From the NCBI GenBank assembly GCA_944391615.1, contig CALXUE010000003.1, positions 1-64,000 of the forward strand: DNA of 64,000 bases, in the 5' to 3' direction. The translations under genes were made by a program, and so were the position numbers. Under the pieces are notes generated by a model that did not search any database, was not told where the DNA came from, and was given only the letters and a program-made list of their open reading frames with translations. The stretch comes from an uncultured Alphaproteobacteria bacterium. Its GTDB lineage: Bacteria; Pseudomonadota; Alphaproteobacteria; RF32; CAG-239. Shown in pieces: positions 760 through 46,092 of this stretch; positions within the stretch are counted from its first letter, which is position 1; every line of letters begins with the position of its first letter.

Positions 760-2115
760 ATGAGAAAGATTTTATTAATGAGTTCGGCGTTGGCTTTATC
801 GAGCGGGGTGGCGGAAGCGGCCTGTATTCAAACGCCGACTTGCGGAGCCATGGGCTATGACAGCACGGTTGCCTGCGAAGGCGGCATCAAATGCCCGTTT
901 GGCAATGCGTGGAACTGTACATTCATCAACAAAATTACCGAGTTGGAAAAAGTTATCGAAAACATTCAAAAAGAAGAGGCTTTGGCCAATTGCAAAATCG
1001 GTGATATTTTGTATCATGATATGACTTGCAATACCAATATGGTGGCTTCTAAAACGCCAATTGGCGTTATCTTTGATGTAACCAATGGTTTGGCAATTGC
1101 GAAAGACGAGTTTAAGAGTGTAGGATGGAGTCGATTAAATGAAGACATATCTCAAATATCAAACTACACAGACTCAGCAACAGTAACAGCAGATTGGCAA
1201 GGTTTTAACAATACAAAAGCGATGTATAACTACATAAAATCTAAAGGCAACCAATTTTCTGCAGCAGAAAGTACACTAACATATACGACTTTAGGAACAT
1301 CTATGGGGCAATGGTATTTGCCTGCCGCAGGCGAATTAAAAGCGATATCGGATAACAAAGATGTTTTAAACACAACACTCTCCAAAATCGGTGGAACACA
1401 GCTATCAGGTACTTATTGGTCCTCATCAGAATACAACAATAATACTTGTTGGAAGATGAGTATTAGCGGAAGTTTTATTACCTCAGATAAAAATGGCGGA
1501 GGAATCGCTAGACCTGTTATAAATTTTGCGTCAAAAGATACAATTTATATTGGAGATGAAATACCTTGTCTTGTAGGAGATGCTATATATTCAGATAAAA
1601 AATGTTATTTAGATGGAGCCCCATTCGGCAAAACACCGATTGGTGTTGTGTTTGATGCCGAAAAACGTTTAGCTATAGCATTAGAAACATCAGTAAAACA
1701 ATGGGCTGAAAAAGATGTTAAAATATCCGGATTAACAACTTATTCTACCAGAACTGAAGCAGACAACGATGATAATGGCAAAAATAATACAGCTACAATC
1801 ATGGCATATGCAAAAACAAATAACTACAAATTTCCTGCTGCAGAGTATGCATATAACTATACAACAGCAGGCACAAAAGCAGGAGACTGGTATTTGCCTG
1901 CTGCCGGTGAAATAAAAACAATGTATTATGAGAAAACTAAACTAAATAAGAGATTAACATATCTGAAAAAAAATAATATTGGTCAGTCTAGTTTATGGTC
2001 TTCTTCAGAAGATAGTAAATATTACGCATGGATAGTTGGTTTTGATGGTTGGGATGATACAATATCAGAACGAAAAATTTATTCATATACTGTCCTTCCA
2101 GTCCTAGCTTTTTAG
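760..2115 (+). CDS. Secreted protein with two Lcl_C (DUF1566) domains
   Basis: 451 residues. The N-terminus is a signal peptide ending near AEA (about residue 20), then a Cys-rich segment (ACIQTPTCG...CPFGNAWNC) and a short predicted coiled coil (about 48-70). Two tandem Lcl_C/DUF1566 units follow (about 77-265 and 270-451), each with GD-I-Y-D-C, PIGV-FD, WYLPAAGE and WSSSE motifs; the second ends in LPVLAF. This family has a C-type-lectin-like fold and usually acts in adhesion or ligand binding. The strong AGGAG-type ribosome site lies in 749-757. Codon and base use become AT-richer after about position 1090, hinting at a mosaic origin. The paralogue at 45209-46042 has one Lcl_C unit. Function as adhesin is inferred. 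Confidence 0.85.
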   Translation: MRKILLMSSALALSSGVAEAACIQTPTCGAMGYDSTVACEGGIKCPFGNAWNCTFINKITELEKVIENIQKEEALANCKIGDILYHDMTCNTNMVASKTPIGVIFDVTNGLAIAKDEFKSVGWSRLNEDISQISNYTDSATVTADWQGFNNTKAMYNYIKSKGNQFSAAESTLTYTTLGTSMGQWYLPAAGELKAISDNKDVLNTTLSKIGGTQLSGTYWSSSEYNNNTCWKMSISGSFITSDKNGGGIARPVINFASKDTIYIGDEIPCLVGDAIYSDKKCYLDGAPFGKTPIGVVFDAEKRLAIALETSVKQWAEKDVKISGLTTYSTRTEADNDDNGKNNTATIMAYAKTNNYKFPAAEYAYNYTTAGTKAGDWYLPAAGEIKTMYYEKTKLNKRLTYLKKNNIGQSSLWSSSEDSKYYAWIVGFDGWDDTISERKIYSYTVLPVLAF

Positions 2116-44131: not shown

Positions 44132-44265
44132 CTTTTTACTCCGCAAGGTATCATACGAAAAGTCAAAATATTTTGCAAGCACATAAAAAAATATTCTTTG
44201 CTTGCGCAGAAAATATACGGCCAAAAAAAATCGTGTAAACCCTTGTCAAACCTTGAAAATTTCTA

Positions 44266-44294
44266 TTTACAGACTTTTTTCCTTGTGGTATAAT
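44266..44294 (+). promoter_or_regulatory. Promoter of the second Cys-rich/Lcl_C operon
   Basis: -35 TTTACA, 17-bp spacer, perfect -10 TATAAT, about 37 bp before the ATG at 44331. Confidence 0.8.
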
Positions 44295-44330
44295 ACGAGT
44301 CGTGGAGATAAGTTGAAAGGTGTTTCGAAA

Positions 44331-45170
44331 ATGAAAAAACAAACTTTTTTGTTTTCAGCATGCAATGCTTTATTATGGCTTTTTAGTTATAATAATGTAT
44401 ATGCTGATGTTTCAAATTTCAAGACGACAGACAATTTCTTTTTGACCAACACACAACACACACAGTTTTTGTCTGATGCCTCCGACTTATCTCCAGATGA
44501 GTTTATCAAAGTTGCGCAAGTTTGCTGGATTATGGACACCGGCGAATGTTTTGGCGTTAATTTTATTTCCGCTGACAGAGATTTGAATAATCCATCTAAC
44601 CCTGAAGATTATGTTCCCAAAGGGCCGACTGATTGTATTGAAGAAGGTTATACCATTACTACCTGTCCCAATGGCTATAAGGGCAACAAAGAATGTTTGT
44701 ATGCCAAAGGGTATTATGCCGAATGTATTGAAGACTGTCCCAGTAATTATAAGCAATGTGAAGAGCCTTATCATGGTGTGGGGCAAGAATGCGGCGATGG
44801 TTATTACGCCAGTTGTCAATGCGACTACTGCGACGGCTATTCCTACAAAAAAGAAGATATTCCCGATGGCTATGTGGTGGATGGTGAGCCTTGTGTATCC
44901 TGTAACGGCGAAGTTTATAAAATCAAAGTCAACCCTTGTGAGGGTTATCAAGACTGCGGCTCGATGGGCGGCAAGGTCGGGGCAACAACGTGTTTATCCG
45001 GCACAAATATGATGTATAGCGAATGCAAACCTTGCCCGAGTTTAGGGGAATATGACACCTGCCCGCCGTGTTCGGTTTGTAGTTATGAAGAATGTTCCAA
45101 CAAATATTATGTGACGGGTTGTGCTGCGGGCTGTCAAGATTACTGCGACTACTGCGCGTTTGAACAGTAA
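44331..45170 (+). CDS. Cys-rich secreted protein (paralogue of 1-744)
   Basis: 279 residues from the ATG after GAAAGGTGTTTCGAAA; the upstream in-frame extension lies before the promoter. Signal peptide about 1-25 (ending VYA). About 35 cysteines in closely spaced CxxC-like groups from residue 60 to the end, suggesting many disulfides. Strong similarity to the partial protein at 1-744. It is co-transcribed with the Lcl_C gene 38 bp downstream. Repeated duplication of the pair suggests a functional unit, possibly surface anchor plus lectin; this is inference. Confidence 0.8.
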   Translation: MKKQTFLFSACNALLWLFSYNNVYADVSNFKTTDNFFLTNTQHTQFLSDASDLSPDEFIKVAQVCWIMDTGECFGVNFISADRDLNNPSNPEDYVPKGPTDCIEEGYTITTCPNGYKGNKECLYAKGYYAECIEDCPSNYKQCEEPYHGVGQECGDGYYASCQCDYCDGYSYKKEDIPDGYVVDGEPCVSCNGEVYKIKVNPCEGYQDCGSMGGKVGATTCLSGTNMMYSECKPCPSLGEYDTCPPCSVCSYEECSNKYYVTGCAAGCQDYCDYCAFEQ

Positions 45171-45208: not shown

Positions 45209-46042
45209 ATGAGAAAGTTTTTATTATATTCATCGGCTTTGGTTGCTGGCGGTTTGTTGAGTGGTGGGGTGGCGAATGCGGCCTGTATCCAAACTCCAAG
45301 TTGTTCTTCATTGGGTTATGAAAGCACTTCCTCTTGTAGTGGTGGTATAAAATGTCCGTTTGGCAATGCGTGGAACTGTAATTTGATTAATAAAATAAAT
45401 TCAATCAACACGCAGATAACGAATTTGACAACTAAAATAACCACGCTAGAAGAGAAAATTGTAACTATAGAGAATAGCGCATCGTCAAGTAATTGTATAA
45501 TCGGAGATATATTGTATTCGGATAAGAGTTGTTATCCGAATGTTATAGCCACAAAGAAACCAATCGGCGTGGTGTTTGATCGAGCGAATAAGTTGGCGAT
45601 AGGGCTGGAGGAATCTCAACGATATTGGTCATATCCAGATTATTTTGATGTTCCGGGGTTGAGTAATATAACATCGTCATCGGCGGTAACAGAGGATTGG
45701 CAAGGTAAAAACAATACGAGGGTAGTGTTGGAGTATTGTAAAGCGAATGGAAAGAGTTGTCCTGCGTTTGAGTATGTGAACAGCTATAAAACAGAAGGAA
45801 CAATAGCTGGAGATTGGTACTTGCCGGCTTTTGGAGAATTAAAAGCTATATATGGTAATAAGAATGTATTGAATATAGCGTTAGGAAAAATCGGCGGAAC
45901 AAAATTGGGTGCAAATAACTATTGGTCTTCTTCCGAGGATTCTACTAACGGTGCTTGGTTCTTGGGCTTCGATGTTGGTTATGTGGACTACAACAGTAAG
46001 AACCACTATAACATTTACGTTCGTCCAGTCCTAGCTTTTTAG
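45209..46042 (+). CDS. Secreted Lcl_C (DUF1566) lectin-like protein with possible hypervariable end
   Basis: 277 residues. Signal peptide (to ANA, about 24), the conserved Cys-rich head ACIQTPSCSS...CPFGNAWNC, a clear heptad coiled coil (about 47-88; repeated I/L every 3-4 residues), then one Lcl_C domain (about 95-277) with PIGVVFD, GDWYLPAFGE, WSSSE and VRPVLAF. The coiled coil suggests oligomers displaying the domain. From about 45925 to the stop, base use shifts from A/G-ending to T/C-ending codons. That segment fits the variable region of diversity-generating retroelement targets, though no reverse transcriptase is in the window. Confidence 0.85.
   Translation: MRKFLLYSSALVAGGLLSGGVANAACIQTPSCSSLGYESTSSCSGGIKCPFGNAWNCNLINKINSINTQITNLTTKITTLEEKIVTIENSASSSNCIIGDILYSDKSCYPNVIATKKPIGVVFDRANKLAIGLEESQRYWSYPDYFDVPGLSNITSSSAVTEDWQGKNNTRVVLEYCKANGKSCPAFEYVNSYKTEGTIAGDWYLPAFGELKAIYGNKNVLNIALGKIGGTKLGANNYWSSSEDSTNGAWFLGFDVGYVDYNSKNHYNIYVRPVLAF
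45938..46018 (+). other. Candidate variable region of Lcl_C gene
   Basis: Of 27 codons, 23 end in T or C; the four that do not (TGG, TTG, GTG, AAG) encode W, L, V and K at what look like fixed scaffold positions. This is the pattern left when AAY codons of a template repeat are mutated at adenines. It is immediately followed by the conserved VRPVLAF end and the repeat at 46024-46092. Confidence 0.4.
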
Positions 46043-46092
46043 GTTCTTCCTCGTAAAAAAACATTAAGCCCGCTCATTTAAGATCGGGCTTG
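46024..46092 (+). repeat. 69-bp dispersed repeat, copy 2 (partner 2097-2165)
   Basis: 68 of 69 positions match copy 1, covering the gene's last codons, stop, spacer and stem-loop. The flanks differ. Confidence 0.9.
46066..46091. terminator. Stem-loop terminator between Lcl_C gene and ettA
   Basis: Same stem as at 2139-2164 with one mismatch (T at 46084). The U-tract is on the minus strand, so it probably ends ettA transcripts. Confidence 0.7.

Follow-up and report, generated by a model that had tools for sequence, protein, structure and literature searches.

The 3' end of the gene at positions 45209-46042 of the window (the whole analysed stretch of 64,000 nucleotides from an uncultured alphaproteobacterium) raises the question of whether it is the variable repeat (VR) of a diversity-generating retroelement (DGR) and, if so, which template and reverse transcriptase (RT) rewrite it. 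A DGR had been proposed from codon composition (the original prediction), and the composition was as described: 23 of the 27 codons at 45938-46018 end in T or C, the exceptions being exactly TGG, TTG, GTG, and AAG, and such endings are fewer upstream in the same gene (109 of 243 codons; Fisher p = 6e-5). The gene is a member of a large paralog family, which is represented twice in the window:

45209-46042, forward strand: target gene, an open reading frame with a 277-aa product
760-2115, forward strand: second family member, with two Lcl_C domains
1996-2112, forward strand: VR-like stretch, decayed but template-like at its 3' end (mismatches at 27 of 46 adenines and 26 of 74 non-adenines)

The 277-aa product is composed of a signal peptide (called by reading the sequence), a Cys-rich N-terminal module, a coiled coil (approximately residues 54-92), and a probable C-terminal Lcl_C domain (DUF1566, CLec-type). 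The Pfam Lcl_C match (3.5e-8) reached 34.2 bits, slightly below the cut-off of 34.9, and a weak sequence match to the solved Lcl C-terminal domain was found (8q4e; E 0.006). The Legionella adhesin Lcl also carries a C-terminal Lcl_C domain, but it is collagen-like; the window protein, in contrast, contains a coiled coil and scored 25.7 bits against the Lcl family model, far under the 500-bit cut-off. An AlphaFold run from a 3-row alignment gave a poor model (pLDDT 40), moderately confident only in helix 54-92, and was discarded. Immediately 5' of the target gene, the window encodes a Cys-rich repeat protein without a Pfam match (44202-45170), which is also present upstream in the sister genome G003 and is possibly a surface partner.

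Neither an RT nor a template repeat (TR) is present in the window, as had been noted; both were identified on another contig, C17, of the same genome (G000), in a cassette with the following gene order:

C17:24805-25617: target gene, first in the DGR cassette
Between this target gene and TR1: Avd gene, 125 aa (Pfam bAvd, NCBIfam DivGenRetAVD)
C17:26328-26444: TR1, between avd and RT
C17:26602-26721: TR2, between avd and RT
C17:26791-28110: RT gene, 439 aa, with LPIGNLTSQ and YVDD motifs

The Avd protein scored above the cut-off of bAvd (1e-15, 58.6 vs. 40) and below that of DivGenRetAVD (2.8e-14, 53.3 vs. 80). The RT carries the DGR-type motif ([IVL]GxxxSQ) as IGNLTSQ and the catalytic YxDD as YVDD, and it is the only RT in the genome, being the single match in a genome-wide RVT_1 search. 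No close relative of this RT was found among viral contigs, phage RTs being at most 48% identical. TR1 and TR2 lie in a unit of about 274 bp that is duplicated in tandem; they differ mainly at third codon positions, and the tail of TR2 is one codon longer. The assignment of the gene end as a DGR variable region was thus supported: the genome encodes Avd and a DGR-type RT and carries two template repeats.

Alignment of the gene end with these templates gave the following features:

45920-46039, forward strand: VR of 40 codons, with codons 1-21 TR1-like and codons 22-40 TR2-like
45923-46015, forward strand: diversified core, codons 2-32 (19 of 40 adenines and 0 of 53 other bases changed; P 4.6e-9)
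46016-46037, forward strand: IMH-like 3' block TACGTTCGTCCAGTCCTAGCTT, common in the alignments to the TRs and most VRs

The template match begins at 45920-45923, so that the composition boundary predicted near 45925 is real, and the four exceptional codons, which had been taken for likely fixed scaffold positions, are all identical in the C17 template repeats. The search of the rest of the genome that had been suggested found a template source, but the VR matches a hybrid of the two repeats and not a single one. Relative to this hybrid, 20 of 44 template adenines and 2 of 76 other bases are changed, and the hybrid fits better than the best single template by 8.7 nats; at the diagnostic third positions, the 5' part is TR1-type throughout (11111) and the tail is exactly TR2-type (CCTCT). 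Both non-A differences probably fall outside the copied stretch: one is in the first codon, where the templates have TGT and nearly all VRs have TAT or CAT, and the other, CGC/CGT at codon 35, is a 3' C/T polymorphism among VRs. The 3' ends of TR and VR share the block TACGTTCGYCCAGTCCTAGCTT and diverge directly after it (TTATTC vs. TTTTAG just 3' of the IMH-like block), and the block at 46016-46037 may act as the homing site. At codon 27 (45998-46000) and its counterparts, the template AAG is kept as AAG in nearly all VRs, even though its two adenines would be expected to mutate; either this Lys is under strong selection or the sequence context protects the codon from mutation.

Ordinary divergence of paralogs, driven by diversifying selection on a ligand-binding surface, or gene conversion among them from silent cassettes, would account for a variable gene end with no retroelement, and adhesins in large paralog families such as this one often evolve so. 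Such an origin is extremely improbable here: the changes occur at template adenines only and spare silent third positions, whereas upstream silent sites have diverged, and the templates are non-coding A-rich repeats next to the RT and the Avd gene. Taken as a whole, the data are best explained by a DGR acting in trans, of which the 3' end of the target gene is, with high confidence, the VR. As judged from the alignments, the system is a trans-acting, multi-template DGR and the window gene a genuine target.

In the whole genome, alignment to the TRs identified 25 VR-like places, the window's included, scattered over many contigs. Seventeen were clean (at most six non-A mismatches) and eight were older. 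The clean VRs were changed at 317 of 739 adenines and at 55 of 1286 non-A positions (Fisher 2e-103). Five of them were TR1-like, five were TR2-like, in six a TR1 5' part was joined to a TR2-like tail, and one was the reverse (TR2 5' part and TR1 tail; C3:94424). Codons at identical residues of divergent paralogs agreed at 44-60% upstream and mostly at 80-100% inside clean VRs; this higher agreement inside the VR indicates that it was copied after the genes had diverged. Many target genes were located at or near contig ends (C2, C5, C7, C18, C19, C29, C30, and C31), so the assembly seems to break at the target family and the gene count is uncertain. VR tails differed by whole codons within the (AAY)n stretch; in the Bordetella phage BPP-1, slippage in AAC repeats has been proposed (PMC12875486).

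The window VR, with its TR1-like 5' half and TR2-like 3' part, could have arisen by template switching, by successive partial homings, or from an older hybrid template. A hybrid VR might accordingly be the copy of a lost third template, TR1-like in its 5' part and TR2-like in its tail; this would agree with the recurrence of the 1+CCTCT combination in several VRs, including one in G003. Some VR tails (TCTCT, CCTCTCT) occur in neither present template, which shows that templates turn over; the TCTCT tail, borne by two of the six hybrids with a TR1 5' part, may be that of an older TR1 allele. The reverse combination at C3:94424 and the several different hybrids in the three-template genome G034 speak against a single lost template, and we regard it as a credible but somewhat less likely source.

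In the genus, the RT was present in 8 of 11 genomes, this one counted, and both named relatives that carry it are metagenome-assembled genomes (MAGs) of uncultured Alphaproteobacteria. VR anchors bear species-specific silent codons: most of the 40 anchors in G004 are TGGTCGTCGTCCGAG and most of the 24 in G034 are TGGTCTTCGTCCGAG, and family genomes without a DGR mostly have no VR anchors. G034 has one RT and three TRs, every TR having offspring among the VRs, in which 259 of 590 adenines and 76 of 1279 non-A positions were changed. G004 encodes the RT on C30 without an adjacent template and a separate Avd-TR-TR cluster on C26; a template for its main VR class (WWSSSE...AWYWYASSG...) was not found in the G004 stretches examined. 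Some templates, at G016:C22:23271 and in the array of G006, look rewritten at adenines, hinting that TRs themselves can be homing targets.

In the complete-looking sister genome G003, 15-16 VRs are kept but a search for an RT found none, possibly owing to loss, with frozen targets left behind, or to an assembly gap. If the window gene were in a comparable state, it would have been diversified formerly and would now be frozen, the DGR being inactive or no longer reaching it; decayed VRs in the same genome, such as that at 1996-2112 with its 26 of 74 non-A mismatches, are also compatible with such a history. The RT and Avd genes are, however, open frames, both TRs are present, and the core of the window VR, with 0 of 53 non-A changes, has undergone little ordinary mutation since its last copying. 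A fossil target is therefore rather unlikely, and a gene diversified in trans is preferred.

The original prediction also included a stem-loop 3' of the gene as a homing hairpin, a role for which no evidence was found:

46066-46091: inverted repeat, a terminator between two convergent genes, conserved in G003

At the orthologous locus of G003, this repeat is found behind a gene that has the same N-terminus as the window target and neither a VR nor Lcl_C. Its retention behind a gene without a VR favours an ordinary terminator, and the role of homing signal was dropped as the primary assignment, although the hairpin may serve both termination and homing. The terminator hairpins of the target genes are unrelated to one another and vary in sequence and distance, and a special hairpin or cruciform of the BPP-1 type was not found 3' of the VRs of target genes, only terminator-like repeats. 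In the G003 ortholog (G003:C1, just below 181305), the N-terminal module is retained, as is the Cys-rich neighbour, but the C-terminal domain is another one, which suggests domain exchange at target genes; owing to this different domain, there is no VR at that locus for comparison.

A conserved leader of about 125 nt was identified 5' of each TR, in C17 (C17:26202-26608) and in relatives. The leader and the TR form a unit of approximately 250-275 bp, which is duplicated whole in arrays. Two units were present in G000, at least two in G004, three each in G005, G016, and G034, four in G018, and seven in G006, the longest tandem array. At 13 loci, the distance from the last TR to the RT start was mostly 5-70 nt (about 100 nt in G006). 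The consensus fold of 20 leader sequences contained 24 pairs, 15 of them with double-sided changes, and 96.4% of cells were paired, compared with 25-47% for slid pairings; its covariation score of 0.462 was reached by none of 500 shuffles (0.232). No Rfam 15 match was obtained at the leaders up to E = 1. Base pairing between the leader and the IMH was considered and dropped, since it was inconsistent across genomes in a by-eye check.

A covariance model of the leader matched in 16 of 63 family genomes. Twelve leader sites outside the model-building set were examined. Eleven of them were followed by A-rich template-like sequence, some without an RT nearby (one of the 11 was cut off at the end of its sequence stretch and one, G093:C9, was atypical), and the twelfth, in G037, by an apparent remnant. 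Pairing was supported at these sites in an alignment fitted to the model itself. In G158, from another alphaproteobacterial family, the leader lies just 5' of a TR and RT, and a second site there has no RT. Weak matches, near the end of avd and upstream of the RT, also came from DGRs of gut phages: MT836212.1 (27.4 bits, E 2.4e-4), MT835523.1 (21.4), and Bacteroides phages F2 and F4 (19.9). These matches are only suggestive of a leader that is older and wider than this bacterial family.

In G018, a leader-TR unit on C72 has no RT in the stretch examined, and three VRs of this TR, belonging to a different target family, were identified at other places in the genome (adenines changed, 21/45, 16/45, and 26/45; non-A, 5/73, 10/73, and 2/73). 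Since the only other RT of G018 is retron-like, the DGR RT on C105 presumably serves the C72 template.

The leader could instead be a shared promoter or DNA element outside the template RNA, copied along with the tandem unit, as the duplication of whole units of about 250-275 bp in arrays would allow. Given that 15 of the 24 pairs show compensatory changes across genera and that the leader also precedes sequence-unrelated and solitary templates, we consider this quite improbable. A more far-reaching reading, which we hold slightly likelier than its negation, is that of interchangeable RNA template modules, in which the folded 5' leader licenses any downstream repeat and one RT serves arrays and solitary templates, and thereby dozens of trans targets in more than one protein family. 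A description of a tandem array beyond two TRs or of a 5' leader was not found in the open-access PMC literature, and the template-leader RNA is apparently undescribed so far.

In most descriptions, a DGR has a single template and serves one target, or a few, located close by. The BPP-1 system (avd-TR-brt, target mtd) resembles the present one in its RT and Avd, the TR beside the RT, the target gene (probably CLec-type here) with an A-specific VR at its 3' end, and the 3' block common to TR and VR, whereas the DGR described here is cellular and has many trans targets and two templates. In BPP-1, a structured spacer 3' of the TR recruits RT-Avd and supplies the primer, and an avd motif ends reverse transcription (PMC12875486); here, in contrast, there is almost no room for a spacer 3' of the TR, and a folded element lies 5' of every TR. 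The DGR of Treponema denticola, as described in part of PMC4891356, likewise has one core cassette, remote targets, and lost cores with left-over targets; that part of the source reports six target genes in the isolate and one TR type per core, compared with 17-25 sites, two TRs, and a leader here. For Stenotrophomonas sp. SKA14, two TRs have been reported together with six VRs on one sequence record; DUF1566 proteins account for five of the VRs, and neither a leader array nor a solitary trans template is described (PMC6642488). Cyanobacterial DGRs share the dispersed CLec paralogs and remote diversification (76 remote targets in 52 genomes), but their targets are mostly cytosolic regulatory proteins and, on average, far fewer per genome (PMC7517822). 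In Thiohalocapsa PB-PSB1, several VRs and evidence of diversification in trans have been reported for nine DGR loci with conflict-system targets (PMC10907252), unlike the one RT and template array found here. A large DGR survey placed remote targets outside its view by its own statement (PMC8144416).

In this bacterial family, each template is a module consisting of the covarying leader RNA of about 125 nt followed by a TR, whether single, arrayed (up to seven), or away from the RT. The leader would most likely flag the RNA to the RT-Avd complex as a template, like the 3' spacer of BPP-1, and may thus take over recruitment and possibly priming; the layout recalls retron RNA. The template RNA would then be reverse-transcribed with errors opposite adenines, and the cDNA would replace the VR of any Lcl_C-type surface protein with a matching 3' block. 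This would probably yield a repertoire of adhesin-like proteins whose ligand-binding faces are diversified.

A cellular genome of 1.57 Mb thus appears to run a variable surface-protein family from one RT and two templates, and template choice and the formation of hybrids become directly testable. Should the leader prove to be what turns an RNA into a template, this would explain how templates are gained, lost, and moved; it would also provide a sequence handle for orphan templates and their targets, as well as a modular design for directed protein diversification.
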